Positions 4,551 to 59,143 of a stretch of DNA of 64,000 bases are shown here, in pieces. The stretch is from NCBI GenBank assembly GCA_030789695.1, contig CM061138.1, positions 184,303,051 to 184,367,050 of the forward strand, in the 5' to 3' direction. Each line of letters starts with the position of its first letter. The stretch's first letter is position 1. The notes under the pieces are model-generated. The model had not been told where the DNA came from and did no database searches. It was given only the letters and a program-made list of their open reading frames with translations. A program made the position numbers and the translations under genes. The stretch is from Scilla litardierei (taxonomy: Eukaryota; Streptophyta; Magnoliopsida; Asparagales; Asparagaceae).

Positions 4551-5339
4551 TGTCACGCCCCGCTTCCCAAAACAGCGGAGGCGAAGCGTGACTAGGCCCG
4601 CTTAGGCCAGAGCTATGGAGCCCTGACCCAATAAGCGTCTGTGTGGTACCAAGACGAAGGTACAGGTCCCTGCATGTTAGTACAGAACAATAAAAGTACA
4701 AGAAGGAAAGAACATCACATTTCATTCCAACATATCAAGAGTACCAAGTCTCAACGCCCGAAGGGCTACAACAACAGAAAAGTAAATATAATGGTGCAAG
4801 CACCCAACCTAGACAAGGAAACAAAAGGTGCTACGCACCCAACTAAAAGTAATAAACGTCTCTGGAAACTGCAACGAGGAGTCTCTAGCTCTGGTCCTCC
4901 TCGGGGTCATACTCATGATCGATGCTCTCTGGCTCCACGTCAGCTGGCAAGTCAGTCTCCTCAACGTACTCTGGCTCAATCCCTGACGTACAGCACCAAA
5001 AGAAGGAACTGTACGTCAGGTAAGGTCTACAAGAAAAGGTTAGACCAAACTGCAAGTGCACCAATTACTTAACAACGTTTTACTGGTTGATTAACATGCT
5101 GAGGTTTTAACAACAGAAGTACACGCTACAGGAAAGTAAACACGACAAGTAATGGTCGTAGCGAGTGCTACCGACCATGGGACTAGCCTACAGGTGTCAA
5201 GACAAGATAGAACACAGAAAGCCAGACACGATAAGACAAGACACGAAAGGGTTCATGCCTGTTCGGTTCGAGGGGGATCAGACCCTCTTGCTGCTTGTAC
5301 GCTCAACCCTACCCCAAAAACCCCAAGAATCGTGACAGG

Positions 5340-5520
5340 ACAAGGGATCACTTGCTCTAGCTTGACAAGTGCCCTATTGCTCTCTGAGCTGTGTATCAAT
5401 ACATGGGATCACCTGCTCTAGCTTGACAGGTGCCCAATTGCCCATCGGGCTGTGAACTAGTACAAGGGATCACTCGCTCTGGCTAGGCGAGTGCCCTATT
5501 GCCCAGCGGGCTGTGCAAAC
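5340..5520 (-). repeat. Three-unit ~61-bp tandem hairpin repeat, Tekay-like A 3' LTR
   Basis: Units start at 5340, 5401 and 5462. Each holds a 6-bp stem with an 11-nt loop (CACTTG/CAAGTG, CACCTG/CAGGTG, CACTCG/CGAGTG) and then a 4-bp stem with a 3-nt loop (GCTC/GAGC, GCCC/GGGC, GCCC/GGGC). Stems differ between units but stay complementary. The repeat lies in the transcribed R/U5 part of the LTR. Confidence 0.9.
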
Positions 5521-6634
5521 GGAACGGGACAAGACACGACAAAACAGGAGGGGTTGTACTATGGTGTCCACAACTCACGCACGCACATGTCAATCCTATG
5601 ATGTCAAAATTGTTGTTGTTGGACTCAGATTTCGTTGTCAAATCTGAGCTATCAGGGCGTCCCGGACGCTATCATTTCACGTCCGGTTCTCGTGGTTCAA
5701 AATGTCTAATCTAGCAAGACTAGGGCCTATGCATGGCCAAGAGCGCAAGTGGTACACTTGCCTGTGGTGGCGAGTGCGTCGTCTCCCTGGTACGCCTCGT
5801 CTAAACGTCTCGTCGGCGGAAAAGCGTCTGAAAATCGTGACACGGCGATGGTGTTAGTTCACGATTCAGAATTCCTATTAGGGTTGTGTCTAGGTTTTCG
5901 GGACTAACCTAATCGTCAAAAATCACATTTTTAATGTATTTAGCCTAGTTGACGATCTACCCTATGTGCACATGCGAGAAGTCCATTCGTCGATTTATCT
6001 ATGGTTGCACAACGTTTTAAAGAGGAGCGGAAAGTAAATTTAATTTGATTAGGTTGCTGATTTTAATTAGGGTTTGATTATCTATTGTGTGAGTTACTAC
6101 GAATTTAGGGGACCAACCTGAAAATGACGATTGCACGAAGATCCGGCGTCAGATCTGGAAAGGTGGAAACTTTGCGTCGTCTGAAAATTCCTAGGCCGTG
6201 GGTAGCGCAGCAAGGAATGTTGATTGTTGATGATGACGTTGGCCTCCGAAGGTGATGACAAAGATCTTGGCGTCTCTCGGGGTCGTCGTCGCTAGAACTG
6301 AGTTTGGATCGTCACGCAAAGAGACGGTGGCCGGAGCTTGGCCATGGGTCTCAGATCTGAGAGGGTGGCCGGCTGTTTGTGGGAAAACAGGAAGGAGAAG
6401 AAGAAACAGGAGAAAGAAAGAGGAAGGAGGAAGAAGGAAGAAGATGAAGATGAAGGGGAGGAAGACCTTGGAGAAGGTGGGGGCAAAGGAGGAGGAAGGA
6501 GAGGCAAGGAAAGGGAAGGAGATGAGTTGGGGAAACAAACAACTCAAAACAATGAGGAGGAATGAAGAGCAGCCGCACGTTTAAATAAGAAAACGAAACG
6601 GCGGCTAGGTCAAAACTAGGGTTTCGGGGGTCAG

Positions 6635-7166
6635 TTAGTCGGTCTGAGAAGGGTGGTTGACCGACTAGTTTGGGAACTAGTCGGTCGGTCGTCTAACTGT
6701 GACCGACTAAAAGGCAAACAGAGAACAGTGTCGGTACATGGTTGGTAGATTTAGTCGGTCTATGAAGGCTCGTCGACCGACTAGTTTGCAACCTAGTCGG
6801 TCGGCCAGTGTTCATTGACCGACTAAAGGGTAAAAGTGGTCGACAGGAAGTTTTGAAAATTAGTCGGTCTGAGAAGAAAACTTAACCGTCTAGTTCGTCA
6901 ACTAGTCGGTCGGTATTCGTTCTTAAACTGACTAAAAATAAACAGTTACTCGACTGCATGAAATGATCTCTAACTTAGTCGGTCTGCGAAGAAGTGTTGA
7001 CCGACTAGTTTGGCAACTAGTCGGTCGGTGGATGAACTTAGACCGACTAAGGGTAAACAGTAACTCAAGGAAAAAACCTGACAGAAATTAGTCGGTCCAT
7101 GAAGAGTTTCTGACCGACTAGATTGACATCTAGTCGGTCGGGCCTTGTTCTTGAACCGACTAAAAT
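6635..7166 (-). repeat. Five-unit ~113-bp palindromic repeat, Tekay-like A 3' LTR
   Basis: Units start at 6635, 6751, 6860, 6975 and 7088. Each contains four TAGTCGGTC half-sites in alternating orientation: TTAGTCGGTC, 14 nt, GACCGACTAG, a short loop, CTAGTCGGTCGGT, about 15 nt, ACCGACTAA. The half-sites are conserved; the spacers vary in sequence but little in length. The inner stem changes from CTAGTT/AACTAG to CTAGAT/ATCTAG in unit five, a compensatory pair. Confidence 0.9.
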
Positions 7167-7367
7167 GCACACCAAGTCTCCAAATGGAGTGCAAAGCTTC
7201 GGGATGGGTTCTAGGGACTCCTAAGATGGGTCCGGCTCCAAGAAAAGAGCGTCATGAAGCACTCTCAGCTCCAGATAGGGGAAAGAATACGGAAAAGAAA
7301 AGAAAGAATACGAACAATCACACATATATATAAATAAATATCATCATACAAAAAACCAGCCGTTACA

Positions 7368-7380
7368 TCCTACCCACCTT
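7368..7380 (-). promoter_or_regulatory. Tekay-like A polypurine tract
   Basis: The minus strand reads AAGGTGGGTAGGA directly before the 3' LTR start TGTAACGG. Element B has the equivalent tract at 33704-33718. Confidence 0.8.
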
Positions 7381-7407
7381 AATAAAATTCCGCCCTCGGA
7401 ATTTCTA

Positions 7408-8319
7408 TCAGAATAGGTGAGGGTAACGCTCTCTCATCTCATCCTCTCTCTCCCAGGTGGACTCTCCAGGTGATCCGTGATGCCACATCACTCTCACCAG
7501 GCCGACTACCTTATTCCTCAACTGCTTCTGTCGACGGTCCAAAATCTGCACGGGCTGCTGGTCATATGTCAAGTCCGGACGGACCGTGATCTCCGAGAAA
7601 TCCACCGTGTGCGATGGATCACTGACGTACCGACGTAATTGAGATACGTGGAAAACGTCGTGAACCCCCACCAAAGATGGTGGTAGAGCAAGGCTGTAGG
7701 CCACTGCTCCCACACGCTCCAGCACATCGAAAGGTCCGATGTACCTCGGACTCAGCTTCCCATTCTTCCCGAATCGAATAACTCCGCGGTTCGGAGAAAT
7801 CTTCAGGAAGACGTGGTCTCCAGGCTGAAACTCCAAAGGTCTCCTCTTCTTGGCATCCGCCCAATGCTTGAAATGATCCTGAGCAACTCTGAGCTTCTCC
7901 CTGATGTCTCTCATGACATCCACAGCTTCCACTATCATCTCTGGACCCAACAGCTCCCGATCTCCAATGTCATCCCAGCTTAGTGGCGATCGACATTTCC
8001 TCTCATATAAGGTAGCAAACGGCGCCATGCCAATGCTCGCCTGGTAGCTGTTGTTATAAGAAAACTCCACCAAATGGAGATGGTCCTCCCAAGATCCCTT
8101 CAAATCGAGCGTGCAAGCTCGCAGCATATCCTTTAGAATCTGAATAGTCCTCTCGGATTGGCCATCAGTCTGCGGGTGGTACGCCATGCTGAAACTCAGA
8201 CTCGTACCCAAATGCTCCTGCAGACTTCTCCAAAACTGAGATGTGAACCTCGTATCTCTGTCAGACACGATGCTCACGGGGACCCCGTGCAAGCGTACAA
8301 TCTACTGCACGTACACGGC
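7408..8319 (-). pseudogene. Tekay-like A integrase core end, C-terminal domain and chromodomain
   Basis: It starts after intron 2. It includes [15 protein letters not shown] and [15 protein letters not shown], which hold the second catalytic aspartate and the glutamate of integrase, then the [12 protein letters not shown]3-like domain and [14 protein letters not shown]. The C-terminus [15 protein letters not shown]...[15 protein letters not shown] is a chromodomain of the Tekay/Del type, thought to steer insertion to heterochromatin. A TAG near the 5' end of this exon, where copy B has GAG, interrupts it. Confidence 0.85.
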
Positions 8320-8377
8320 CTACGTCACAACTAACCCAAGGAGGAAAATCAAAATGAAGTAAAAGAAGAAATTTTAT
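8320..8377 (-). other. Degenerate intron 2 inside integrase, copy A
   Basis: 58 bp, aligned with the 55-bp intron at 34666-34720 of copy B. The acceptor (...ACGTAG) is intact, but the donor reads AT instead of GT, so this copy probably cannot splice here. Without removal the frame runs into stops. The sequence is U-rich on the transcript, like plant introns. Confidence 0.65.
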
Positions 8378-9328: not shown

Positions 9329-9331
9329 AAC

Positions 9332-9767
9332 TCATCCTAAGCCCTTCCCTGATGCATCACAATATACTTCGAAACCTCCGCTTTGATCCGGTACTGCCAA
9401 AACTGGTGCTGAGGTCAACCTCGCCTTCAAGATACTGAAAGACTCCTCACAAGCATCAGACCACTGAAACTCCACATCCTTCCTCGTCAGCTTCGTCATC
9501 GGCTCAGCAATCTTCGAGAAATCCTTGATGAACAGCCGATAATAGCCTGCTAAACCAAGGAAGCTCCTGATGTCGGATGCTGACTGCGGAGTCGGCCAAT
9601 CTCGAACTGATCTGACCTTCTCCGGATCCACAGATATGCCATCACCGGACACCACGTGTCCCAGAAATGCGACTCTGTCCAGCCAGAACTCGCACTTGCC
9701 ATACTTGGCATACAACTTGTGTCGCCTAAGCGTCTCCAACACTGTCCTCAGATGACAGCTGTGCTCC
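9332..9767 (-). pseudogene. Tekay-like A RT thumb/connection and RNase H start
   Basis: Contains [30 protein letters not shown] and [20 protein letters not shown], the normal continuation of Gypsy RT, and [15 protein letters not shown], the start of RNase H. A one-base deletion near 9768, relative to copy B, causes the frameshift that separates it from the RT palm. Confidence 0.85.
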
Positions 9768-10808
9768 TCTTAGACTTCGAGTAAATAAGAATGTCGTCGA
9801 TGAAAATCACAACAAACTTATCCAAGAAGTCGTAGAAAATCAAGTTCATAAGGTTCATGAACACAGCTGGAGCATTAGTCATGCCGAAAGGCATCACCAC
9901 AAACTCATAGTGCCCGTACTTCGTCCGGAAAGCTGTCTTCGGAATGTCATCTTTCTTCACCTTCAGCTGATGATATCTGCTCCTCAAATCCAACTTCGAG
10001 AAAACTCTCGAACCTCCCAGCTGATCAAAAATGTCGTCGATGCGCGGCAGCGGATACTTGTTCTTCACGGTGACAACATTCAATCCTCGATAATCCACGC
10101 ACATCCTGCGTGACCCATCCTTCTTCTTCACAAGCAACACAGGTGCACCCCACGGTGACACACTAGGGTGGATGAAACCCTTCCGCAACAACTCATCCAA
10201 CTGCTTCCGCAGCTCCTCAAGCTCCGCGGGAGCCATCCGATACGGCGCCTTCGATATCGGCTGCGCACCCGGCATCAGATCGATACCGAACTCCAAAGCC
10301 CTGTCGGGTGGCAGACCCGAGATATCCTCCGGAAAGACGTCGTCAAAGTCTTTGACAACCGCTGGTCGGTCGATCTCCATCTCCATCTGCAACGCTGCAA
10401 CGATCGGCACCTCCGGCTTGGCCCAAAATCTGATGGGCCCAAGTGACTCATCTTTGCTGCGGAACTCGAACTCCGGATGGCCTGGAATCTGGAAAACCAC
10501 TCTCTTGCCGTGACAATCGATCGAAGCGTGGAAATCTCCCAGCCAATCGATGCCCAGGACGACATCGAAATGCGGCAGATCGTGGATAATGAAATCTGCA
10601 TATAACTCATGTCCGCTAACCACTAAGGGAATCGACCGACATCCCAGGTTCACAGTCACCACTCCGTTCCCTGTGGTGATGTCCCAACACTTAGGAAGTG
10701 TGTGGGAAGGAATGGAGTGCTTTGTCATAAACCTCCGGGATATGATGCATATGGATGCACCAGAGTCAAACAAAGCCAAAGCAGGGTGAGAGGACACAAG
10801 AATGGTGC
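9768..10808 (-). pseudogene. Tekay-like A protease and RT palm
   Basis: Starts at the acceptor of intron 1. Protease: [18 protein letters not shown] with the catalytic DSG, and [65 protein letters not shown] and the active-site [13 protein letters not shown]. About 345 residues are open until the frameshift near 9768. The upstream codons 10809-10869 that keep the frame open lie in the intron and are not expected to be translated. Confidence 0.88.
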
Positions 10809-10927
10809 CTAAGAAAACAAGGGGTCTAAGGTCAAACACTACTCTAACAATCAAACAAACAAACAACACTTACAAGACTAGCAATTCAATATAGTTATGA
10901 AAAGGAACGACTATGTCAAGATGTTAC
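10809..10927 (-). other. Intron 1 between gag and pol, copy A
   Basis: 119 bp on the minus strand, bounded by GCAG/GTAACATC and TTTTCTTAG/GCACC. Removing it joins the last Gag codons (...GVIAG) to [16 protein letters not shown] in frame, with the split codon GGC. Without splicing Gag ends four codons later at TAG. Copy B has an intron of 112 bp at the identical place. Confidence 0.8.
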
Positions 10928-12037
10928 CTGCAATCACCCCATTCAGCTCCTCAGTCTCCACAGCAGTCATAGTATAGGCCGGCCTCGGAGGCTGCACCGC
11001 TCGCTGGTACAGCTGCCTCTGTGGCACCAAGGGTGGTCCACGAATGGCAGGTCCTCTCTAAACTGGGGCAGACGCCCTCATCTGCAACGGGGCTGGCGCT
11101 CCAACAACAGCACTGCGGGCTCTCGGACAATCCTTCGCAGCATGCGAAGCATCGCCACAAAGTAGACACAGACCCAGCTTCCTCCTACAGTTGGTCTGAA
11201 CATGCCCAGGCTTGCCGCAGAAATGGCATGGACCCTTGCTCTGCTGCTGCACTGGTGCTCCAGGTCTCTTGAATGGCACAGTCTAGACTGGCCTCATCAT
11301 CGGCCTGGCAGGTGGCCGGTACTGCTCCATAGGGCGCTTTCCTCTGTCCTCTGGAGTGTCAGGCAGGTGCGAAATCGTCTCATGATTCTTTGCAGCATCT
11401 AACACCTCACTCATAGTCGAGAAACTAGCAGAGGACATGGAAGCCTGGACCTTCGGACTAAGTCCCTGACGGAACCGCTCAGCTCGGTTCTCCTCCTTCT
11501 TCACCATGTGCGGGGGCAAAACGGCTTAGCATCTCGAACTCAGCCTCATACTCATCGATCGTCTTCTTGAATAGCTGCCTTGGTGACGTACTTCTCCTTG
11601 AACATGTGGCGAAAAGTCTTCCACTCTACAGGCTTCTACAGACGCCTCTCCTCAATGCGCCACCAGTTTTGGGCAATCTCAGTCAGCTGCATCTTCGCGA
11701 TCTCCACCCGAGTCTCATCTAGAATCTTGGTAGCAACCAACTTCTCCTCAGTGCGCTGGATCCACTCATCAGTACCCAGAGGTCCTTCCTTCCCAGAGAA
11801 GGTCTTCGGCTGAAGCTCGTTGAACTGTTTCACTCCTGGAGCAGCTCGTGGAGCAGGCGGAGGTGGAGGTGGTGCAACAGGTGGGGCCCGGGCAGCACGG
11901 TTGGACTGCTGCACTAGCTGATGCTGCACCTCAAGCATCTCTCACATTACACCAAGGAACTGACGGAACTCTCCGCCCTGGTCTTCCTGAATCCCATCTC
12001 CAGCGCTCCCCGATCGGGTAGTACGTCGCCCTGCCAT
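10928..12037 (-). pseudogene. Tekay-like A gag
   Basis: The start is taken at 12037 (MAGRRTTR), 104 bp after the PBS. Visible blocks are a proline run (PPPPPPAPRAAPG), FNELQPKTFSGKEGPLGTDEWI and NWWRIEERRL of the capsid, then VKKEENRAERFRQGL, and two zinc knuckles CHFCGKPGHVQTNC and CLLCGDASHAAKDC. Gag forms the virus-like particle and packages RNA. It is broken by a TGA where copy B has AGG, a TAG where B has GAG, a frame disruption near 11520-11630, and two TAG codons where B has CAG. Confidence 0.85.
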
Positions 12038-12140
12038 CCTATTGACAAAAAGACGTAGGTTAGACTCGTACAATGTTTGAATATCAAAGTGAATGTCCTT
12101 ACTCTTACTGTTCTGTACTTGCAGGAAAATTGGGACGTGG

Positions 12141-12158
12141 AACCTGCATGGGCCACCA
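12141..12158 (-). promoter_or_regulatory. Tekay-like A primer binding site (tRNA-Ile type)
   Basis: The minus strand reads TGGTGGCCCATGCAGGTT, starting 8 nt after the LTR end. It is complementary to a tRNA 3' end with acceptor ATGGGCCACCA, which from memory of plant tRNAs is tRNA-Ile. Copy B matches the same tRNA over 25 nt into the T arm. Confidence 0.7.
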
Positions 12159-12955
12159 CTAAAACTTGTCACGCCCCGCTTCCCAAAACAGCGGAGGCGA
12201 AGCGTGACTAGGCCCGCTTAGGCCAGAGCTACGGAGCCCTGACCCAATAAGCGTCTGTGTGGTACCAAGACGAAGGTACATGTCCCTGCATGTTAGTACA
12301 GAACAATAAAAGTACAAGAAGGAAAGAACATCACATTTCATTCCAACATATCAAGAGTACCAAGTCTCAACGCCCGAAGGGCTACAACAACAGAAAAGTA
12401 AATATAATGGTGCAAGCACCCAACCTAGACAAGGAAACAAAAGGTGCTACGCACCCAACTAAAAGTAATAAACGTCTCTGGAAACTGCAACGAGGAGTCT
12501 CTAGCTCTGGTCCTCCTCGGGGTCATACTCATGATCGATGCTCTCTGGCTCCACGTCAGCTGGCAAGTCAGTCTCCTCAACGTACTCTGGCTCAATCCCT
12601 GACATACAGCACCAAAAGAAGGAACTGTACGTCAGGTAAGGTCTACAAGAAAAGGTTAGACCAAACTGCAAGTGCACCAATTACTTAACAACGTTTTACT
12701 GGTTGATTAACATGATGAGGTTTTAACAACAGAAGTACACGCTACATGAAAGTAAACACGACAAGTAATGGTCGTAGCGAGTGCTACCGACCACGAGACT
12801 AGCCTACAGGTGTCAAGACAAGACAGAACACAGAAAGCCAGACATGACAAGACAAGACACGAAAGGGTTCATGCCTGTTCGGTTCGAGGGGGATCAGACC
12901 CTCTTGCTGCTTGTATGCTCAACCCTACCCCAAAAACCCCAAGAATCATGACAGG

Positions 12956-13136
12956 ACAAGGGATCACTTGCTCTAGCTTGACAAGTGCCCTATTGCTCTC
13001 TGAGCTGTGTATCAATACATGGGATCACCTGCTCTAGCTTGACAGGTGCCCAATTGCCCATCGGGCTGTGAACTAGTACAAGGGATCACTCACTCTGGCT
13101 AGGCGAGTGCCCTATTGCCCAGCGGGCTGTGCAAAC
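12956..13136 (-). repeat. Three-unit tandem hairpin repeat, Tekay-like A 5' LTR
   Basis: Same repeat as in the other LTR, with units at 12956, 13017 and 13078. The third unit has a single change (CACTCA facing CGAGTG) that breaks the terminal pair, which looks like post-insertion decay. On the transcript the array would lie about 1.1 kb downstream of the TATA box. Confidence 0.9.
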
Positions 13137-14200
13137 GGAACGGGACAAGACACGACAAAACAGGAGGGGTTGTACTAGGGTGTCCACAACTCACGCACGC
13201 GCATGTCAATCCTATGATGTCAAAATTGTTGTTGTTGGACTCAGATTTCGTTGTCAAATCTGAGCTATCAGGGCGTCCCGGACGCTATCATTTCACGTCC
13301 GGTTCTCGTGGTTCAAAATGTCTAATCTAGCAAGACTAGGGCCTAAGCATGGCCAAGAGCGCAAGTGGTACACTTGCCTGTGGTGGCGAGTGCGTCGTCT
13401 CCCTGGTACGCCTCATCCAAACGTCTCGTCGACGGAAAAGCGTCTGAAAATCGTGACACGGTGACGGTGTCAATTCACAATTCAGAATTCCTATTAGGGT
13501 TGTGTCTAGGTTATCGGGACTAACCTAATCGTCAAAAATCACATTTTAATGTATTTAGCCTAGTCGACGATCTACCCTATGTGCACATGCGAGAAGTCCA
13601 TTCGTCGATTTATCTACAGTTGCGCAATGTTTTAAAGAGGAGAGGAAAGTAAATTTAATTTGATTATGTTGCTGATTTTAATTAGGGTTTGATTATCTAT
13701 TGTGTGAGTTACTACGAATTTAGGGGACCAACCTGAAAATGACGATTTCACAAAGATCCGGTGTCAGATCTGGAAAGGTGGAAACTTTGCGTCGTCCGGA
13801 AATTCCTAGGCCGCGGGTAGCGCAGCGAGGAATGTTGATTGTTGATGATGACGTTGGCCTCTGAAGGTGATGACAAAGATCTTGGCGTCTCCTGGGGTCG
13901 TCGTCGCTAGAACTGAGTTTGGATCGTCACGCGAAGAGACGGCGGCCGGAGCTTGGCCGTGGGTCTCAGATCTGAGAGGGTGGCCGGCTGTTTGTGGGAA
14001 AACAGGAAGGAGAAGAAGAAGCGGGAGAAAGAAAGAGGAAGGAGGAAGAAGGAAGAAGGAAGAAGATGAAGATGAAGGGGAGGAAGACCTTGGAGAAGGT
14101 GGGGGCAAAGGAGGAGGAAGGAGAGTCAAGGAAAGGGAAGGAGATGAGTTGGGGAAACAAACAACTCAAAACAATGAGGAGGAATGAAGAGCAGCCGCAC

Positions 14201-14210
14201 GTTTAAATAA
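14201..14210 (-). promoter_or_regulatory. Putative TATA box, Tekay-like A 5' LTR
   Basis: The minus strand reads TTATTTAAAC, about 50 bp downstream of the palindrome array and directly upstream of a long CT-rich stretch typical of plant core promoters. The same box is at 6580-6588 in the other LTR. Confidence 0.55.
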
Positions 14211-14256
14211 GAAAACGAAACGGCGGCTAGGTCAAATCTAGGGTTTCAGGGGTCAG

Positions 14257-14785
14257 TTAGTCGGTCTGAGAAGGGTGGTTGACCGAATAGTTTGGGAACT
14301 AGTCGGTCGGTCGTCTCACTATGACCGACTAAAAGGTAAACAGAGAACAATGTTGGTACAGGGTTGGTAGATTTAGTCGGTCTATGAAGGCTCGTCGACC
14401 AACTAGTTTGCAACCTAGTCGGTCGGCCAGTGTTCATTGACCGACTAAAGGGTAAAAATGGTCGACATGAAGTTTTGAAAATTAGTCGGTCTGAGAAGAA
14501 AACTTAACCGACTAGTTCATCAACTAGTCGGTCGGTATTCGTTCTTAAACTGACTAAAAATAAACAGTAACTCGACTGCATGAAATGATCTCTAACTTAG
14601 TCGGTCTGCGAAGAAGTGTTGACCGACTAGTTTGGCAACTAGTCGGTCGGTGGATGAACTTAGACTGACTAAGGGTAAACAATAACTCAAGGGAAAAACC
14701 TGACAGAAACTAGTCGATCCATGAAGAGTTTCTGACCGACTAGATTGACATCTAGTCGGTCGGTCCTTGTTCTTGAACCGACTAA
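14257..14785 (-). repeat. Five-unit palindromic repeat, Tekay-like A 5' LTR
   Basis: This is the counterpart of 6635-7166 with scattered substitutions, several in the half-sites (for example GACCGAATAG in unit one). It lies in U3, immediately upstream of the TATA-like box on the minus strand. Confidence 0.9.
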
Positions 14786-15031
14786 AATACACACCAAGTC
14801 TCCAAATGGAGTGCGAAGCTTCGGGATGGGTTCTAGGGAATCCTAAGATGGGTCCGGCTCCAAGACAAGAGCGTCATGAAGCACGCTCAGCTCCAGATAG
14901 GGAAAAGAATACAGAAAAGAAAAGAAAGAAGACGAACAATCACATATATATATAAATAAATATCATCATACAAAAAACCAGCCGTTACAGTCCCGAAAGG
15001 GACTAAATCAACTCAAGAAGAGGAGTGCATA

Positions 15032-17314: not shown

Positions 17315-17346
<32 letters not shown>

Positions 17347-17540
17347 TGATGTCTCTTCCAGAAGAGAGTGAAGCACTTTCTCTTATCACCACCAAATGCC
17401 TATCAACTTTGATTCTGGGTTGGAGAGCAAGAGAGAATGAAATTCTAGGGCTTGGAAGGAATTGAGGACTTGAGAGCTTAGAGATGAGATCAATGAAGTC
17501 TTAAGGGTTTCAAGAGCTCTCCAATGGAATAGTAGGAGAC

Positions 17541-28850: not shown

Positions 28851-28852
28851 GA

Positions 28853-28869: not shown

Positions 28870-28875
28870 AAAACT

Positions 28876-30720: not shown

Positions 30721-31538
30721 TGTCACGCCCTGCTTCCCAAAAAGGATGGAGGCGAAGCGTGACTAAGGCCCGCTTAGGCCGGGGCTGAGAGCCCAGACCC
30801 AATAAGCATCTGTGGTATTCCAAAACGAAGGAAACAGGTCCCTGCAAGTTAGTACGGAACAACAAAAGTACTGAAAGAGATATCATTTCATTTTATTCCA
30901 AATAAAACATCCAAAGTACTGAGAGTCTAAAATTGCCCGAAGGGCTACAACTGTAGAAAAGAGAAACTACCGGTGCAAGCGCCCAACCTAATCAAGAAAA
31001 CAAAAGGTGCTACGCACCCAAACTAAACTGGAACAGAACTCTGGATCAGGAACGTGAGGCCTCTAACTCTGGTCCTCCTCTGGGTCGTACTCCAGATCAA
31101 CGTCCTCCGGCTCTCCGTCTGCTGGCAAGTCTGCCTCGTCGACGTACTCTGGCTCAACACCTGACGTACATCACCAAAAGAAGGAACTGTACGTCAGGTA
31201 AGGTCTACAAAAAGGGTTAGACCAAACTACAAGTGTATTAACTTTTAGATAACGTTTTACTGGTTGATTAGCATGCTGGGGTTATAACTGAGTAACAAAC
31301 AGAAGTAACACAGCAGAAAGTAAAGCACAGCAAGTATTAGTCGTAGCGTGTGCTACCAACTACGGGACTAGCCTACAGGTGTCATGACAAGTCGGGACGT
31401 GACGGAACAAGACGGGACAAGACAAGTGAGACACGAAAGGGTTCACACCCTACGGTTCGAGGGGGATCAGACCCTCTTGCCGTGCGCACGCTCAACCCAA
31501 CCCCAAACCCCAAGGAAAGACAAGACAAGACAAACAGT

Positions 31539-31705
31539 ACAAGGGATCACTCGCTCTAGCTTGGCGAGTGCCCTATTGCCCGCAGGCTGTGTATCCGTAC
31601 AAGGGATCACTCTCTCTAGCTTGGAGAGTGCCCTATTGCCCGCAGGCTGTGAATCTGTACAAGGGATCACTCGAAGAGTGCCCTATTGCCCCTAGGCTGT
31701 GCAAG
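31539..31705 (-). repeat. Tandem hairpin repeat, Tekay-like B 3' LTR
   Basis: Units at 31539, 31599 and 31659 with stems CACTCG/CGAGTG and CACTCT/AGAGTG. The third unit has lost most of the loop (CACTCGAAGAGTG). The second small stem is GCC/GGC around CGCA or CCTA. Confidence 0.9.
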
Positions 31706-32569
31706 AAGGGACGGGACGTGACAAGACGGGAATGGTTATTCTAGGGTGTCCACACACACGCACACACATGATAGCCTTACGATATCAAAAGTTGTTGTTG
31801 TCGGGCTCAGACTTCGTCGTCAAGTCTGAGTCGTCAGGAGTCGTCCCGGACGTTATCATTTCACGTCCGGTTCTTTTTGTTCACAGTTATCAATTCTAAC
31901 CAACTAAGGCCTAAGCACGGCCAAAAGTGCAAGTGGATACACTTGCCTGCGATGGCGAGTGTGTCGTCCTCTCGAAGCGTCTCGTCCAAGCATCTCGTTC
32001 GCAGAAGTCCGTCTGAAACAGTGCCGTGGCGACGGTGTCAGGTCTCAATTTCATCAAATCCTATTAGGGTTCGTTTCTTGGTTATCGGGACTATCCTATT
32101 CGTCAAAAGTCACTTTTTCGATGTTTCAGCCTAATCGACGATCTAATCCTATGTGCACAGTCAACAAAGTCCATTCATCGATTTTCTAGATGTGTACAAC
32201 GTTTTATTGGTGCTGGAAAATAAATTTTAGTTCAAGTTGACGATTTTTAGTTTACGGTTCAGTCAGCTATTGTGGGGGTTTCTACGAGTTTCAGGGAACC
32301 AACCTGAACCGGAGTTTGTCGTAGATTGGAAGTCGTGTCTGAACGGAGAACTCCTCAGCTTCAGATCTGGTCCTCGCACGATTTCCCAAAAGTTGAAACT
32401 TGCGACAAAGGCCTACGACGTGTCGCAACGTCGTAGAGGGTAAATCCGCGAAGTAGCACACTCAAGTAGGGCCCACAGCAGTGCTAGGGGTCAATGGGGG
32501 ACCCACAACACCTCTGGAGAACTTGGGGGGCCCACCACAGGAGTTGGTGTGGGAGATTCAATGTTGCGA

Positions 32570-33030
32570 CGAACTGTCGTCGGTCGGACACCGTCGGTGC
32601 GGGGGTTTCTCTCGGTCAGACCGAGAGAAACTCTCGGTCGGGCGTGATGCAGCGCAGTGGAGGCGGGGGCTTGTGCGGTGCGAGGGATTCCCTCGGTCAG
32701 ACCGAGCGGATCTCTTGGTCGGACACGGCAGGGTGCGGGCGTGCAGCGCTTGGGGCAATGCGGAACGGCCTCTCGGTCGGTGCGGGCGATGGCTTCGGTC
32801 GGGCGCTAGCGGGTGCGGGGCGGATGCGGAGCGGCTGCAACGAAGCGCTGCAGCGTGCGGACGAAGCGGGGTGCGGGCTGTTCTCTCGGTCGGAGCGGGC
32901 GATCTCCTCGGTCGGAGCGGGGGCGCTGCGGGTTGCAACATTGCAACTTGCAACGAAGCGGAGCGGAGCGCGGGTGCGGGGCTTGGCCTCGGTCAGACAC
33001 AGCCCGATGCGGTGGCGGCGGTCGGTCGTA
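32570..33030 (-). repeat. CTCGGTC-type GC-rich palindrome array, Tekay-like B 3' LTR
   Basis: About ten CTCGGTC or TCGGTCGG motifs in 450 bp, including two palindromes CTCGGTCAGACCGAG. The context is very GC-rich. Unlike the other families, on the minus strand it lies downstream of the TATA-like box. Confidence 0.82.
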
Positions 33031-33703
33031 CACTGGGGCTGCTGTCGCAACATTGCGACGAATGTTGGGAAGGTGTTTTTGACGGCTAGGGTTTGTGTGA
33101 TGCGGAAATAACCTAGCCTAGGGTTTATTTAAATAGAAATGAGCTAGGGTTAGGGTTAGGGTTTTAAGAAAAATAATTAAAATAATTAAAATAATTTAAC
33201 CTCTCCCTCACGCAAGTTGTGTGCGGCCAAAAATTCTGAAATTTGGTCAAAAAATTCTTTAATACGTTATTATAATATAGGAATTTTATCATAATTAAAA
33301 CACTTATAAAAATAGGTTTTAAAATTATTTAAAACTTTATAAAAAATAGAAAATAGGTCAAATTAAGCCTAAAAATTGTAAAATAATTATGGGGTGATCG
33401 GAACAACGAAAGAAAGAGAGTGAAGAAGACGGATCTAAATTTCAATGTCGAGAGACGACACTAAAAATAGAAACGTCTCGTGTCAAAACAGAAAGTCGCG
33501 ACGTCACATCAAATAAGATAGTATCGCGGAATAACGACTCGAGATATGTCGTTTCAAAGTTGTTCCACAATCTAATACTTTCAGAGACGATCACGACAAC
33601 ATATCACACAATAATGTTCAAAATCAAATAATGTCTAAAATAAACACGTGCACGATCAAGAGCACGTGCACAAAGAAAGTACGATCGGAAACCGACCGTT
33701 ACA

Positions 33704-33744: not shown

Positions 33745-34665
33745 TCAAGCTTCGTTGGGGAAAAGATGCGGGAATCGCTCTCTCATATCATCCTCACGCT
33801 CCCAGGTGGACTCTCCAGGTGATCCGTGACGCCACATCACTCTCACCAGGTCGACAATCTTATTCCTCAACTGCTTCCGTCGACGGTCCAAGATCTGCAC
33901 AGGCTGCTGGTCATATGTCAGGTCCGGGCGAACTGTAATCTTTGAGAAATCAACCGTGTGTGACGGATCACTGACGTACCGACGTAGCTGCGATACGTGG
34001 AATACGTCGTGAACCCCCTCCAAAGATGGTGGCAGAGCAAGGCGGTAGGCCACTGCTCCCACACGCTCTAGCACATCAAATGGCCCAATATACCTCGGAC
34101 TCAGCTTTCCCTTCTTCCCAAAACGAATAACTCTGCGGTTCGGAGAAATCTTCAGGAAGACGTGATCTCCAGGCTGAAACTCCAAGGGTCTCCTCTTGGC
34201 ATCTGTCCAATGCTTGAAGCGATCCTATGCAACTCTAAGCTTCTCCCTGATGTCTCTCACGACATCCATAGCTTCCACTATCATCTCCGGACCCAACAGC
34301 TCCCGATCTCCGATGTCATCCCAGCTCAGTGGCGATCGACATTTCCTTCCATATAAGGCAGCAAACGGTGCCATGCCAATGCTCGCCTGGTAGCTATTGT
34401 TATATGAGAACTCCACCAAGTGAAGATGGTCTTCCCATGATCCCTTTAAATCAAGCGTACAAGCTCGCAGCATATCCTCCAGAATCTGAATAGTCCTCTC
34501 GGACTGGCTATCAGTCTGCGGGTGGTACGCCGTGCTGAAACTCAGACTCGTACCCAAATGCTCCTGCAGACTTCTCCAGAACTGAGATGTGAACCTCGTG
34601 TCTCGGTCAGACACAATGCTCACGGGGACTCCATGTAAGCGTACAATCTCCTGCACGTACACGGT
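33745..34665 (-). pseudogene. Tekay-like B integrase core end and chromodomain
   Basis: It starts at the acceptor of intron 2 with [21 protein letters not shown], then [15 protein letters not shown] (catalytic Glu context) and, after an in-frame TAG at 34225-34227 where copy A has CAG, the [10 protein letters not shown] domain, [14 protein letters not shown] and the chromodomain ending WEREDDMRERFPHLFPNEA. The single stop is the only lesion I see in this exon. Confidence 0.87.
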
Positions 34666-34720
34666 CTATGTTACAACCAAATCAAGAGGAAATTAAAAGA
34701 GAAGTAAAGAAGAAATTTAC
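34666..34720 (-). other. Intron 2 inside integrase, copy B
   Basis: 55 bp on the minus strand, donor GAG/GTAAATTT, acceptor AACATAG/ACC, strongly U-rich. Splicing joins LARKYLE to TVYVQEIV in frame, restoring the normal integrase alignment; retention gives a stop after about 12 codons. It is very short for a plant intron, so removal needs RNA evidence. Confidence 0.68.
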
Positions 34721-36433
34721 CTCCAAATATTTCCTTGCCAAAGCTTCCGTAGACTGGCCCACTCGGAATGTGATAAAGTGCGCAGACTTGGTCAACCGAT
34801 CTACGATCACCCAAACTGCGTCGTTCTGCTTCGGGGTCCGAGGTAAACCAGTCACGAAGTCCATCGTAATATGTTGCCACTTCCTCTCCGGAATAGGAAG
34901 CGGTTGCAGCAACCCAGCAGTACGATGGTGCTCAGCCTTCACTTGTTGGCATATCAAACACTTGGCAACGCTCCGTGCCACACTCCTCTTCATGCCAATC
35001 CACCAGTAATTCAGACGGAGATCCTTATACATCTTGGTGCCTCCAGGATGTATAGAATATGACGAGCTATGAGCCTCACTCAACAGCTCCTCACGAACAT
35101 CACCTACAGGTACACAGAGTCTGCTGCCGTACCGCAGCGAACCATCCTCATGAATCACGAACTCCGTCCGTAGTCCAGCTTCAACATGCCTCCTGATCCT
35201 CTGCAGTTTTGGATCTCCTGCCTGTGCTACCTTGATCCGATCCACGATCATGGACTGAATCTGCAAATTCATGAATGAACGAACCACACCAAGTAGGACA
35301 ACCTCCAAATCCATCTCTCTCAGCTTCTGCTGAATCCTCCAGTCGGCAATATGCATCATCGCAGTAGGAAGTCTACTCAAGGTATCCGGCACTACGTTCA
35401 CCTTTCCCGGATGATACTGCAAATCAATCTCGTAGTCAGCCATGAGCTCTAACCATCGCCTCTGACGCATGTTGAGCTCCTTCTGCGTGAAGATGTATTT
35501 CAAGCTCTTGTGATTGGTGAAAATCTTCACACTCTCACCTAGCAAGAAGTGCCTCCAAATCTTCAGTGCAAAAATCACTACTGCCAACTCCAGACCGTGC
35601 GTCGGGTAATTCTTCTCATGAGTCCTCAACTGACGAGAAGCGTACACGACCACGTGGCCATGCTGCTGCAAGACGCATCCTAGGCCCTTCCCTGATGCAT
35701 CACAATAAACTTCGAAGCCTCCGCTTCGATCCGGTACTGCCAACACCGGTGCCGTGGTCAATCTCGCCTTCAAGATACTGAAGGCCTCCTCACAAGCATC
35801 TGACCAAAGAAACTCCACGTCCTTCCTCGTCAGCTTCGTCATCGGCTTTGCAATCTTCGAGAAATCTTTGATGAGCCGTCGATAATATCCTGCTAAGTCA
35901 AGAAAACTCCTGATGTCTGACGCTGACTGCGGAGTCGACCAATCTCTAACTGCTCTGACCTTCTCCGGATCCACAGATATGCCATCGTCGGACACCACGT
36001 GTCCCAGGAATGCGACTCTGTCCAGCCAGAACTCGCACTTGCTATACTTGGCATAAAGCTTGTGTCGCCTCAGCGTCTCCAGCACTGTCCTCAGATGACA
36101 GCTGTGCTCCTCCTCAGACTTCGAGTAAATAGGAATGTCGTCAATAAAGATAACGACAAACTTATCCAGGAAGTCGTAGAAAATCAAGTTCATCAAATTC
36201 ATGAACACAGCTGGAGCATTGGTCACGCCAAACGGCATGACCACGAACTCATAATGTCTGTACTTCGTCCGGAAAGCTGTCTTCGGAACATCATCCTTCT
36301 TCACCTTCAACTGATGGTACCTGCTCCTCAAGTCCAACTTCGAGAAGACTCTCGAACCTCCAAGTTGATCAAAGATATCGTCGATGCGTGATAGCGGATA
36401 CTTATTCTTCACGGTGACAGCATTCAGCCCTCG
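34721..36433 (-). pseudogene. Tekay-like B RT, RNase H and integrase N-terminal half
   Basis: About 570 residues in one frame: [27 protein letters not shown] (active-site FIDD intact), [39 protein letters not shown], the zinc module [11 protein letters not shown] and [13 protein letters not shown]. RNase H has FTNH where copy A has FTDH, a possible loss of a catalytic aspartate. It is preceded by a TAG at 36434-36436 (copy A has TAT). Confidence 0.88.
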
Positions 36434-37152
36434 CTAGTCCACGCACATCCTGCGGGACCCATCCTTCTTCTTCACGAGCAAAACTGGTGCACCCCATGGT
36501 GACACACTAGGGTGGATGAAACCCTTCTGCAGCAACTCATCTAACTGCTTCCGCAGCTCCTCGAGCTCAGCGGGAGCCATACGGTACGTCGCCTTCGATA
36601 TCGGCTGCGCTCCCGGCATAAGATCAATACCAAATTCTAGAGCTCTGTCGGGTGGCAGACCCGAGATATCCTTCGGAAAGACGTCGTCGAAATCTCTGAC
36701 GACTGCTGGTCGTTCGATCTCCATCTCCATCTGCATGGCTGCAACAATCGGCACCTCCCGCTTGGCCCGATATCTGATGGGCCCAAGCGACTCATCTCTG
36801 CTGCGGAACTCAAACTCCGGATGGCCTGGAATTCGGAACACCACCCTCTTGCTGTGACAGTCGATCGAGGCGTGGAAATCTCCCAACCAATTGATGCCAA
36901 GAACGATATCGAAGTGTGGCAGATCGTGGACAATGAAATCTGCAAAGAGCTCGTGTCCACTGACCACCAAAGAAATCGATCGACATCCCAAATTCACTGT
37001 CACCACTCCGTTCCCTGTGGTGATATCCCAACACTTAGGGAGTGTATGGGTGGGAATGCAGTGCTTTGTTACAAACCTCCAGGATATGATGCACATAGAT
37101 GCACCGGAGTCGAACAAAGCCAAGGCTGGGTGAGAGGATACTAGAATGGTGC
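36434..37152 (-). pseudogene. Tekay-like B protease and RT N-terminus
   Basis: Begins at the acceptor of intron 1. Contains [18 protein letters not shown] (protease DSG), [26 protein letters not shown] and [12 protein letters not shown], ending at the TAG at 36434-36436 within the conserved CVDYRGLN motif. Confidence 0.88.
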
Positions 37153-37264
37153 CTAAGATATAAACAACTATGGTCAAACCAAGCTACTCTAACACGCAAT
37201 TCAAACAAGCAACACAAATAATAAGATCTAATCTATGAAATGAAAGACTAGAATCAAGAGTTAC
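37153..37264 (-). other. Intron 1 between gag and pol, copy B
   Basis: 112 bp, donor GCAG/GTAACTC, acceptor ATATCTTAG/GCACC. Position, phase and flanking codons are identical to copy A. Retention ends Gag as VIAGNS-stop; splicing yields VIAG joined to [13 protein letters not shown] in frame. Confidence 0.82.
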
Positions 37265-38409
37265 CTGCTATAACTCCATCCAGCTCCTCAGTCTCAACAG
37301 CTGTCATGGTATACGCCGGCCTCTGGGGCTGTGCTGCTTTCTGAAACATCTGCCTCTGTGGCGCCAAAGGTGGTCCACGAGCAGCAGGTCCTCTCTGAAC
37401 TGGAGCAGGTGCTCTCATCTGCAGCGGGGCTGGCGCTCCAACTACAGCATGACGAGCTCTCGGACAATCCCTCGCAGCATGCGAGGCATCTCCACAAACT
37501 AAGCATAGGCCCATCTTCTTCCTGCAGGTGGCCTGAACATGTCCAGGCTTTCCGCAGAAGTGGCACGGGCCCTTGCCCTGAATCTGAACTGGTGCTCCAG
37601 GCCTCTTGAATGGTACTGTCTGAACTGGCCTCATTGTCGGCCTAGCAGGTGGCCGGTACTGCTCCATGGGACGCTTCCCCTTATCAGCTGGAGGGTCAGG
37701 TAGGAGCGAAATAAGCTCATGATTCTTCGCAGCATCCAGCACCTCCCTCATCGTCGTGAAACTCGCCGAAGACATAGAAGCCAGAATCTTCGGACGCAGT
37801 CCCTGACGAAAGCGATCAGCTCTCTTCTCCTCCTTCCTCACCATATACGGGGAAAACGGCTCAGCATCTCAAACTCAGCTTCATACTCCTCGACGGTCAT
37901 ATCCCCCTGCTTCAGATCTATAAAATTGCTCAGCAGCTCCCTCCTTGCAGACTTGGTTAAATACTTGTCCTTGAACATCGATCTGAAGGTCTTCCACCCC
38001 ACTGGCTTCTCAAGACGCCTCTCCTCGATGCGCCACCAGTTCCTCACATTCTCCATCAGCTGCATCTTCGCTATCTCCACCCGGGTATCGTCAGGAATCT
38101 TCGCAGCAACTAACTTCTCCTCCGTGCTCTGGATCCACTCGTCAGTAGCTAGGGGTTCCTCCTTCCCCGAAAATGTCCTTGGCTGGAGCTCGTTGAACTG
38201 CTTCACTCCTGGAGCAGCTCGTGGGGCAGGTGGAGGAGGTGGTGGTGCAACTGGAACAGCCTGACAGCACGCTGGGACTGCTGAACCAACTGATGCTGAA
38301 CATCCAGCATCTCCCTCATCACACCCAGAAACTGACGAAAGTCTCCGCCCTGGTCCTCCGGAACTCCATCTCCTGAGTTCCCCGATTGGGTAACGCGTCG
38401 TCATGCCAT
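37265..38409 (-). pseudogene. Tekay-like B gag
   Basis: Start at 38409 by alignment with copy A; codon 3 is TGA. A one-base loss near 38265 and another near 37843 shift the frame, giving open parts 37838-38404 and 37254-37844. Visible: PPPPPPAPRAAPG, FNELQPRTFSGKEEPLATDEW, RNWWRIEERRLEKPVGW, MTVEEYEAEFEMLSRF and two zinc knuckles CHFCGKPGHVQATC and CLVCGDASHAARDC. The reading frame into the intron donor is intact. Confidence 0.86.
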
Positions 38410-38498
38410 CCTATTGACAGAAACACAGAGATTAGACTCGTACGATTACTGGATGATAATAAAATGAATTTCAATACTTTGATTGTTCCGTATTCGTA

Positions 38499-38523: not shown

Positions 38524-39350
38524 CTAAAACCTGTCACGCCCCGCTTCTCAAAAAGGACGGAGGCGAAGCGTGACTAAGGCCCACTTAGGCCGGGGCTGAG
38601 AGCCCAGACCCAATAAGCGTCTGTGGTATTCCAAAACGAAGGAAACAGGAACCTGCAAGTTAGTACGGAACAACAAAAGTACTGAAAGAGATATCATTTC
38701 ATTTTATTCCAAATAAAACATCCAAAGTACTGAGAGTCTAAAATCACCCGAAGGGCTACAACTGCAGAAAAGAGAAACTACCGGTGCAAGCACCCAACCT
38801 AATCAAGAAAACAAAATGGTGCTACGCACCCAAACTAAACTGGAACAGAACTATGGATCAGGAACGTGAGGCCTCTAACTCTGGTCCTCCTTTGGGTCGT
38901 ACTCCGAATCAACGTCCTCCGGCTCTCCGTCTGCTGGCAAGTCTGCCTCGTCGACGTACTCTGGCTCAACACCTGACGTACATCACCAAAAGAAGGAACT
39001 GTACGTCAGGTAAGGTCTACAAAAAGGGTTAGACCAAACTACAAGTGTATCAAATTTTAGACAACGTTTTACTGGTTGATTAGCATGCTGGGATTATAAC
39101 TGAGTAACAAGCAGAAGTAACGTAGCAGAAAGTAAAGCGCAGCAAGTAGTAGTCGTAGCATGTGCTACCAACTACGGGACTAGCCTACAGGTGTCATGAC
39201 AAGTCGGGACGTGACGGAACAAGACGGGACAAGACAAGTGAGACACGAAAGGGTTCACGCCTTACGGTTCGAGGGGGATCAGACCCTCTTGCCGTGCGCA
39301 CGCTCAACCCAACCCCAAACCCCAAGGAAAGACAAGACAAGACACACAGT

Positions 39351-39516
39351 ACAAGGGATCACTCGCTCTAGCTTGGTGAGTGCCCTATTGCCCGCAGGCT
39401 GTGTATCCGTACAAGGGATCACTCTCTCTAGCTTGAAGAGTGCCCTATTGCCCGCAGGCTGTGAATCTGTACAAGGGATCACTCGAAGAGTGCCCTATTG
39501 CCCGCAGGCTGTGCAA
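39351..39516 (-). repeat. Tandem hairpin repeat, Tekay-like B 5' LTR
   Basis: Counterpart of 31539-31705. In unit one the right arm reads TGAGTG (a G-U-compatible change opposite CACTCG). Unit two keeps CACTCT/AGAGTG. Confidence 0.9.
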
Positions 39517-40379
39517 GAAGGGACGGGACGTGACAAGACGGGAATGGTTATTCTAGGGTGTCCACACACACGCACACACATGATAGCCCTACGATATCAA
39601 AAGTTGTTATTGTCGGGCTCAGACTTTGTCGTCAAGTCTGAGCCGTCAGGAGTCGTCCCGGACTCTATCATTTCACGTCCGGTTCTTTTTGTTCACAGTT
39701 ATCAATTCTAACCAACTAAGGCCTAAGCACGGCCAAAAGTGCAAGTGGATACACTTGCCTGCGATGGCGAGTGTGTCGTCCTCTCGAAGCGTCTCGTCCA
39801 AGCGTCTCATCCGCGGAAGTCCGTCTAAAACAGTGCCGTGGCGACGGTGTCAGGTCTCAATTTCATCAAATCCTATTAGGGTTCGTTTCTAGGTTATCGG
39901 GACTATCCTATTCGTCAAAAGTCACTTTTTCGATGTTTCAGCCTAATCGACGATCTAATCCTATGTGCACAGTCAACAGAGTCCATTCGTCGATTTTCTA
40001 GATGTGTACAACGTTTTACTGGTGCTGGAAAATAAATTTTAGTTCAAGTTGACGATTTTTAGTTTAGGGTTCAGTCAGCTATTGTGGGGGTTTCTACGAG
40101 TTTCGGGAACCAACCTGAACCGGAGTTTGTCGTAGATTGGAAGTCGTGTCTGAACGGAGAACTCCTCAGCTTCAGATCTGGTCCTCGCACGATTCCCCAA
40201 AAGTTGAAACTTGCGACGAAGGCCTACGACGTGTCGCAACGTCTTAGACGGCAAATCCTTGAAGTAGCACACTCAAGTGGGGTCCACAGCAGTGCTAGGG
40301 GTCAATGGGGGACCCACAACACCTCTGGAGAACTTGGGGGGCCCACCACAGGAGTTGGTGTGGGAGATTCAATGTTGCG

Positions 40380-40840
40380 ACGAACTGTCGTCGGTCGGAC
40401 ACCGTCGGTGCGGGGGTTTCTCTTGGTCAGATCGAGAGAAACTCTCGGTCGGGCGTGATGCAGCGCAACGGAGGCGGGGGCTTGTGCGGTGCGAGGGATT
40501 CCCTCGGTCAGACCGAGCGGATCTCTCGGTCGGGCACGGCGGGGTGCGGGCGTGCATCGCTTGGGGCGATGTGGAGCGGCCTCTCGGTCGGTGCGGGCGA
40601 TGGCTTCGGTCGGGCACTAGCGGGTGCGGGGCGGATGCGGAGCGGCTGCAACGAAGCGCTGCAGCGTGCGGACGAAGCGGGGTGCGGGCTGTTCTCTCGG
40701 TCGGAGCGGGCGATCTCCTCGGTCGGAGCGGGGGCGCTGCGGGTTGCAACATTGCAACTTGCAACGAAGCGGAGTGGAGCGCGGGTGCGGGGCTTGGCCT
40801 CGGTCAGACACAGCCTGATGCGGTGGCAGCGGTCGGTCGT
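40380..40840 (-). repeat. CTCGGTC-type GC-rich palindrome array, Tekay-like B 5' LTR
   Basis: Counterpart of 32570-33030 with a handful of substitutions, for example CTTGGTCAGATCGAG where the left LTR has a perfect palindrome. Confidence 0.82.
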
Positions 40841-41532
40841 GCACTGGGGCTGCTGTCGCAACGTTGCGACGAACGTTGGGAAGGTGTTTTTGACGGCTAG
40901 GGTTTGTGTGATGCGGAAATAACCTAGCCTAGGGTTTATTTAAATAGAAATGAGCTAGGGTTAGGGTTAGGGTTTTAAGAAAAATAATTAAAATAATTAA
41001 AATAATTTATTTAAAACAAATTCACTCTCCTCTCCCTCACGCAAGTTGTGTGCGGCCAAAAATTCTGAAATTTGGTCAAAAAATTCTTTAATATGTTATT
41101 ATAATATAGGAATTTTATCATAATTAAAACACTTATAAAAATAGGTTTTAAAATTATTTAAAACTTTATAAAAAATAGAAAATAGGTCAAATTAAGCCTA
41201 AAAATTGTAAAATAATTATGGGGTGATCGGGACAACGAAAGAAAGAGAGTGAAGAAGACGGATCTAAATTTCGATGTTAAGAGACGAAACTAAAAATAGA
41301 AACGTCTCGCGTCAAAACAGAAAGTCGCGACGTCACATCAAATACGATAGTATCGTGGAATAACGACTCGAGATATGTCGTTTCAAAGTTGTTCCACAAT
41401 CTAATACTTTCAGAGACGATCACGACAACATATCACACAATAATGTTCAAAATCAAATAATGTCTAAAATAAACACGTGCACGATCAAGAGCACGTGCAC
41501 AAAGAAAGTACGATTGGAAACCGACTGTTACA

Positions 41533-59142: not shown

Positions 59143-59143
59143 G

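Follow-up and report, generated by a model that had tools for sequence, protein, structure and literature searches.

Two related Ty3/gypsy elements in the window

Within the window, i.e., the whole stretch of 64,000 nucleotides analyzed here, two related Ty3/gypsy LTR elements were distinguished, copy A (positions 4551-14989) and copy B (approximately 30721-41532), both lying on the minus strand. The LTRs of copy A (5′ LTR at 12167..14989, 3′ LTR at 4551..7367, both minus strand; 2.8 kb, 97% alike, K2P of the pair 0.028) have TG...CA ends and are accompanied by a GGGAC target duplication on both sides of the element. For copy B (5′ LTR at 38532..41532, 3′ LTR at 30721..33703, both minus strand; 3.0 kb, 96% alike, K2P of the pair 0.030), the TG...CA ends and a GCTGA target duplication were read by eye from the flanks. 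With the substitution rate of 1.3e-8 used for dating, both copies were inserted about 1.1 million years ago. The usual initiator-tRNA-like primer site, TGGTATCAGAGC, was not seen beside the 5′ LTRs (12140-12166 and 38500-38531, minus strand), where both copies contain TGGTGGCCCATGCAGG.

The encoded domains follow the order Gag (PF03732), protease (RVP_2), RT, RNase H, integrase and SH3/chromodomain-like, and the coding part is interrupted by two putative introns, intron 1 at the gag/protease border and intron 2 in the integrase core. In copy B, gag (37265..38410, minus strand) is open from 38410 and contains the capsid domain PF03732, a zinc knuckle match under the cut-off and a private 1-nt frameshift; a comparison of the Gag tail of this copy with the protein collection gave no homologue. 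The pol part between the introns of copy B (34721..37152, minus strand; protease, RT, RNase H, integrase H2C2 and the start of the core) and the part after intron 2 (33745..34650, minus strand; remaining integrase, SH3_Tf2-1 and a chromodomain-like match) have one internal stop each. The pol ORF of copy A that directly abuts intron 1 (9748..10808, minus strand) runs unbroken from the protease (RVP_2) into the start of RT, and the part after intron 2 (7408..8304, minus strand) encodes the remaining integrase, SH3_Tf2-1 and a weak chromodomain-like match. The score of PF00385 at the integrase C-terminus is 24.7 bits in copy B and 17.2 bits in copy A, both under the curated cut-off of 25.1.

Stops and frameshifts are present in both window copies, which are therefore decayed. 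A C-run in gag, near 11525 in A and 37850 in B, is shifted by +1 and -1, respectively; since all of the 14 family copies (out of 30) that matched the search for this run have one common 8-nt spacing, the two shifts are private to A and to B. The A/B family most likely belongs to the Tekay/Del clade of chromoviruses, a placement based on structure and on a chromodomain match that falls slightly short of the cut-off: it shows the PR-RT-RH-INT order, LTRs of 2.8-3.0 kb and 5-bp duplications, and lacks the single continuous gag-pol ORF that is typical of this clade.

Besides copies A and B, the window contains a 6.4-kb direct repeat (50958-57364 and 57614-64000; 99.6% identical, 249 bases apart), each copy of which carries 130-bp tandem units and one perfect TGGTATCAGAGC; it represents either a very recent duplication or an unusually sized LTR pair. 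The region 24004-30420, in which a repeat pair (24004-25623 and 28876-30420, 93%) surrounds a gag ORF (27538-28308, PF03732) and no pol ORF appears in the list of ORFs of at least 130 aa, looks like a gag-only, non-autonomous LTR element. A further direct repeat of 1.6 kb (16856-18404 and 45838-47418) is 87% alike and its copies are separated by 29 kb.

The putative intron between gag and protease

Intron 1 of copy A (10809..10927, minus strand; 119 nt, GTAAC...TCTTAG, phase 1) is read in the sense direction as ...GTG ATT GCA G/GTAACATC...TGTTTTCTTAG/GC ACC ATT CTT..., where the slashes mark its borders, and its length leaves a remainder of 2 when divided by 3. A branch-site-like TTGAC motif, kept in the family, is located at 10831..10835 (minus strand). 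The homologous intron 1 of copy B (37153..37264, minus strand; 112 nt, GTAACT...TCTTAG) interrupts the same codon. The first-pass annotation had given the exact coordinates of the 119-bp GT...AG segment, leaving the minus strand unstated. Its further claims, that excision joins Gag (VIAG) to the protease (TILVSS) in frame through a split codon and that a retained segment stops Gag four codons in, agree with our results: the split codon encodes glycine, and Gag of copy A read through the unspliced intron gives G-N-I-L-T-stop. The segment, described there as having a U-rich 3′ end, contains 46% T versus a mean of 25% in the internal region.

Neither the T nor the AT content of intron 1 was reached by any of the 4,444 (A) and 4,491 (B) non-overlapping windows of equal length in the internal region. 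In the alignment of A with B, the adjoining exons are nearly gapless and indels are concentrated inside intron 1. When the internal alignment was divided into 60-column blocks, at least 2 gap columns together with a T content of at least 0.36 occurred in the pol part only at intron 1 and in one integrase block, and also in one block of the 5′ leader.

Conservation of intron 1 in the family

The host assembly (3.68 Gb) was searched with a 301-nt region around intron 1, and 40 matches of 3,119 candidates were scored, covering the query at 95-100%. All 29 distinct copies (28 of the 40 scored, including copy A, plus copy B) have GT...AG ends and intron lengths of 112-123 nt. Since the segment formed part of the query, this set is biased. 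A less biased one was obtained with a pattern comprising the acceptor and the protease start only, which gave 1,039 genome matches (0 for the backwards control) and misses sub-lineages; the first 30 matches listed were taken. GT was found at the aligned donor column in all 30 of these acceptor-selected copies, with donor variants GTAAC, GTAAT, GTATA and GTATT and lengths of 109-119 nt, so that intron 1 spans 109-123 nt over all copies read. The columns GTA, TTGACC and TCTTAG were invariant (the final TTAG being fixed by the selecting pattern), the A of TTGAC lies 22-24 nt from the acceptor in 30/30 copies, and the T content of the intron is 43-52%. In 19 further copies, all of them free of intron 2, the motif reads TTGAC in 17 and GTGAC in the other two. 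The distance to the acceptor falls within the 20-40 nt in which a branch site is sought, and the donor (GTAAC or GTATA) deviates at +5 from the usual consensus GTAAG. U-richness is a described property of plant introns (PMC3735527).

The segment evolves like noncoding DNA between coding flanks. Across the 30 copies, intron 1 holds 172 gap cells, compared with none in the final 90 nt of exon 1 and a single one in the initial 105 nt of exon 2, and substitutions per site and copy amount to 0.09 and 0.06 in the exons versus 0.13 in the intron. Pairwise differences by codon position in the flanks (0.08/0.09/0.25 and 0.05/0.05/0.17) make third positions about three times as variable as first and second ones. 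Intron lengths are spread over all three remainders modulo 3 (11/8/11 copies), and in 32/32 sequences read unspliced a stop in the Gag frame occurs at codon 4-18. Additional exon stops, as decayed copies would show, were found in 5/32 sequences within the last ~29 Gag codons and in 2/32 within the first ~34 pol codons. Moreover, intron 1 has sub-lineages of its own.

Relatives are continuous at the junction

Among the best 120 of 7,979 relatives of the pol ORF, an LFDSG-type motif was found in 53, and 51 of these have enough upstream residues for the comparison; in 46/51, [VIT]xG is placed exactly 11 residues before the motif, as it is across intron 1 here. In the same set, the 11-residue spacing is kept by 33 of the 34 relatives that extend upstream beyond the junction by at least 30 residues and hence are continuous there. 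The database proteins nearest to the pol ORF bear no clade label. A palm Gag-PR-RT protein gave 97 matches in the host genome (68 of 117,451 candidates scored); 29 of these extend in a single frame from residue 1-5 to residue 645-647 at 49-57% identity, and 16 of the 29 are free of stops. As both the relatives and other host families are continuous at the junction, the insertion is particular to the A/B family, and the predicted excision of intron 1 restores the homologous reading frame without the loss of a residue. The first residue of four database proteins (P0011, P0013, P0069 and P0070) coincides with the gag/protease junction residue; a gene caller may have produced this effect (e.g., by choosing a GTG start), or other families may be broken there.

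Two queries against IMG/VR contigs retrieved no relatives. Among GTDB genome contigs one relative was found, L001 (NZ_SWBM01000019.1, 3173 bases), which is continuous at both intron sites, has a stop ~20 codons before the gag/protease junction, and shows the same integrase residue spacing, unbroken, as that across intron 2. This plant-like Ty3/gypsy gag-pol in a bacterial genome record, of very low coverage (cov 0.2), is probably contamination.

A second putative intron in the integrase core

Intron 2, which is absent from the first-pass annotation, lies in the integrase core of both copies, where it separates KYLE from EIVRLHG. In copy B (34651..34720, minus strand) it comprises 70 nt with GTAAAT...GTGCAG ends and divides RKYLE/EIVRLHG in phase 0; in copy A (8305..8377, minus strand; 73 nt) it is degenerate, with the donor mutated to AT. 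Forty regions were fetched 2.2-2.8 kb downstream of intron-1 acceptors, and both flanks of intron 2 were found in 31 of them and not in the remaining 9. The intron is present in 29 of the 31 readable copies (69-79 nt; 26 with GT-AG ends and 3 with a mutated acceptor), its lengths modulo 3 are distributed as 11/10/8, its T content is 36-49%, and a branch motif was matched only by a loose pattern. The acceptor side gave 1,506 genome matches and the backwards control 0. The other two readable copies lack intron 2 exactly, keep intron 1 and read KYLEEIVRLHG in frame; no partial deletion of intron 2 was seen among the 31 readable copies of the 40 fetched. If kept, intron 2 would cut the integrase core. 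The losses of splice sites (3/29 intron-2 acceptors, the intron-2 donor of copy A and one intron-1 donor) are as expected of decay.

Exact intron-free copies and their phylogeny

The exact intron-2-free junction has 58 matches in the genome, and the exact intron-1-free junction has 2 (backwards controls 0 in both cases). As these copies were counted by exact pattern, both numbers are lower bounds, i.e., at least 58 and at least 2. One of the two intron-1-free copies is A-like and the other B-like, and both read VIAGTILV in frame. A first pattern for the intron-1-free junction gave 0 matches in the host genome; it required an exon-2 stretch that differs in both real intron-1-free copies, and the idea that intron 1 was never lost was rejected once a pattern anchored nearer to the junction had found these two. 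One of them keeps intron 2 and the other lacks both introns, so that all four combinations of presence and absence of introns 1 and 2 occur in the genome. The first-pass annotation had proposed a spliceosomal intron placed exactly between gag and pol. This proposal is supported by splice signals kept across sub-lineages, noncoding evolution, sharp borders, uninterrupted homologues with equal spacing and the two exact intron-free copies. Nor does the segment behave as a random insertion in family members, a possibility raised there as well: the members without it lack it exactly.

A maximum likelihood tree was constructed from 60 rows and 434 exon columns, including 27 of 30 loci cut from the 58 intron-2-free matches and the two intron-2-free copies found first (the rows L107, the same place as L079, L109, the same as L098, and L129, a long branch, were dropped). 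The presence of intron 2 changes 11 times on this tree (10-11 in bootstraps), at least 4 changes are forced by well-supported (starred) branches, and none of 200 bootstraps gave a single origin. Resolution of the tree is weak (of 56 inner branches, 8 are starred and 23 open), and template switching between copies could carry one loss to several branches and so inflate the number of changes; for these two reasons, the 11 changes do not equal the number of splicing events. All 13 sampled copies of one starred clade are intron-2-free, which indicates that the intron-2-free form went on multiplying.

The copy lacking both introns belongs to this clade. Among 20 further intron-2-free copies examined, including the other 12 of the clade, 19 keep intron 1 (18 with GT...AG ends and one with a mutated donor) and one was unreadable; hence the loss of intron 1 within the clade is derived, as its 12 other members keep it. 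In total, intron 1 is readable in 22 of the 58 intron-2-free copies and kept in 21. One intron-2-free copy, for which a long frame had been reported, was suspected of lacking intron 1 too, which was rejected on inspection of its intron 1. The exons of the intron-2-free copy L098 are 98% like those of the intron-bearing L077 and L084.

The share of intron-free copies is ~0.2% for intron 1 (2 beside 1,039) versus ~4% for intron 2 (58 beside 1,506), and, as the two patterns differ in stringency, only the order of magnitude of this contrast counts. The scarcity of intron-1-free copies suggests that RNA free of intron 1 either seldom arises or is seldom copied. Scattered losses at one exact junction in different sub-lineages fit reverse transcription of spliced RNA, and exact excision of this kind is most likely what such reverse transcription would have left behind.

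Splicing model and alternative explanations

We consider the A/B family to be a high-copy Ty3/gypsy chromovirus family with two spliceosomal introns, the splicing of which would make Gag-only versus Gag-Pol RNA, and we give this reading a probability of roughly 0.83. The host spliceosome would remove intron 1 and intron 2 from part of the transcripts, independently of each other. RNA keeping intron 1 would yield only Gag, terminated at codon 4-18 of the read-through, removal of intron 1 would join the protease and the rest of Pol to give Gag-Pol, and removal of intron 2 would be needed for a whole integrase. RNA keeping intron 1 would nearly always be the one copied into DNA, so that intron 1 would be maintained, and RNA without intron 2 would be copied more often than RNA without intron 1. 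From this anatomy we infer a splicing-based control of the Gag to Gag-Pol ratio, which would replace the solutions based on a frameshift, a stop or a single ORF by which Gag is produced in excess over Pol. Exact removal of introns 1 and 2 is documented at the level of genomic copies only.

The contrast between the two introns allows a more far-reaching and tentative proposal, which is possible rather than probable, namely a two-step splicing program that sorts RNA by fate. Retention of intron 1 would mark both the Gag mRNA and the genome, the spliced Gag-Pol mRNA would almost never be reverse-transcribed, and intron 2 would gate the integrase, its loss being compatible with amplification; intron 1 would then perhaps carry or adjoin a packaging signal. 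If this holds, the genome is a countable fossil record of retrotransposon splicing.

A rather unlikely alternative, although the foremost of those that compete with the proposed control, accepts splicing and makes intron 1 a passenger: most mRNA would be spliced to Gag-Pol, Gag would be released by proteolysis, and unspliced RNA would be the packaged genome. It accommodates intron 2, which has no obvious role in the Gag:Pol ratio and yet is present and repeatedly lost, as well as the single frame that other host families use across gag-PR-RT, also described for Beta chromoviruses (PMC3605345). The position of intron 1 at the usual point of Gag/Pol separation and the Gag-frame stop at codon 4-18 in every one of the 32 sequences speak for a function instead, and so does the far greater rarity of intron-1-free than of intron-2-free copies, which, at unequal stringency of the patterns, fits selection keeping intron 1. 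That the segments are not spliced at all, being intergenic or decayed spacers with an independently started Pol, is very improbable. Such spacers would resemble the two ORFs of Bianca, on average 172 bp apart (PMC6317226), and the intron-free copies would be microhomology-mediated DNA deletions: AG/G stands at both ends of each segment, and a deletion between these triplets could in principle give the same product as splicing. Deletion across AG/G would, however, predict partial deletions too, and none was found in the 31 readable copies of 40. Against unspliced spacers stand also the retention of GT, TTGAC and AG despite indel differences between the segments of the copies, the homologous frame given by the junction with zero residues lost, the losses at the same junction in different sub-lineages, and the integrase core, which intron 2 would otherwise cut.

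Improbable, but less so than unspliced spacers, is an old intron-free state, i.e., a single gain of the introns, with intron-free segments then distributed through recombination with a lineage that lacks them. The continuity of other host families at the gag/PR junction, the well-known template switching of LTR elements and the tree itself, which is weakly resolved and counts changes while being blind to gain versus loss, would all be compatible with it. The intron-free copies nevertheless share their exons with intron-bearing neighbors (as L098 does with L077 and L084), the copy lacking both introns falls inside a clade in which the 12 other members have intron 1, and the introns have their own sub-lineages.

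Comparison with known systems

To our knowledge, little is established about the way in which single-ORF Ty3/gypsy elements of plants produce an excess of Gag over Pol, and the A/B family would represent a separate chromovirus solution to this problem, with an intron at the gag/protease border (in Ogre, another border is used) and an integrase intron. A single genome offers more than 1,000 copies and dozens of exact intron-free ones, from which one can estimate, by DNA alone, what fraction of the spliced RNA is copied back into DNA; whether intron retention plays a role in packaging the genome becomes directly testable through the contrast between introns 1 and 2. There is also a warning for annotation, as tools built for a single ORF would take families of this kind for broken polyproteins.

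The introns of the A/B family are short and noncoding and their removal gives one frame, which differs from CRR, the rice centromeric chromovirus. CRR is a Gypsy element with spliced transcripts, but its splicing removes RT and makes two ORFs (PMC3735527). The spliced Gypsy cases named in the same source are Ogre, CRR and the env of Bagy2 (PMC3735527), and a 2025 review describes plant LTR elements as generally without introns, with Ogre and EVADE among the notable exceptions (PMC12786077). In Ty1/copia elements, splicing favors Gag over Pol, as described for BARE1 (PMC3735527) and for the short-Gag isoforms of EVD (PMC7730604). The spliced RNA of BARE1 makes Gag only (PMC3735527), whereas the anatomy of the A/B family suggests the reverse, Gag only from unspliced RNA and Gag-Pol from spliced RNA. 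Bianca, also of Ty1/copia and thus of another superfamily, has two ORFs with a short separating region, on average 172 bp, for which the section describing it reports no proven intron (PMC6317226).

Tekay/Del chromoviruses, e.g., Bongo of Beta vulgaris, share with the A/B family the Protease-RT-RH-INT order, LTRs of mostly 2.6-3.0 kb and 5-bp target duplications, and they have a chromodomain (PMC3605345), at the place of which the A/B copies show the match under the cut-off. Beta chromoviruses, Tekay included, are described with one continuous gag-pol ORF (PMC3605345), unlike the A/B family with its two introns. According to the classification of Neumann et al., most plant groups have one ORF, and Bianca and Ogre are named with two separated ORFs (PMC6317226). 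The novelty of the intron for Tekay/Del elements, suggested by the first-pass annotation, is consistent with both the continuous ORF of Beta chromoviruses (PMC3605345) and the single ORF of most plant groups (PMC6317226), and the open-access literature searched showed no intron either in the gag-pol of a Tekay element or in the integrase of a plant chromovirus.

The closest parallel is Ogre, a Ty3/gypsy element of the Tat lineage, in which, as proposed from DNA for the A/B family, an intron of the gag-pol region is removed from part of the transcripts to give the whole polyprotein (PMC6317226, PMC3735527). Ogre is a non-chromovirus with its intron between GAG-PROT and RT (PMC6317226), whereas the A/B family has the intron between GAG and PROT, a chromodomain-like match and a second intron in the integrase. 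The features defining Ogre, an intron between PROT and RT and no chromodomain, were thus not those found here, and by analogy the A/B family would work like Ogre, yet it is not an Ogre. The principle is known from Ogre, and the lineage, the position of the intron and the second intron appear to be new.
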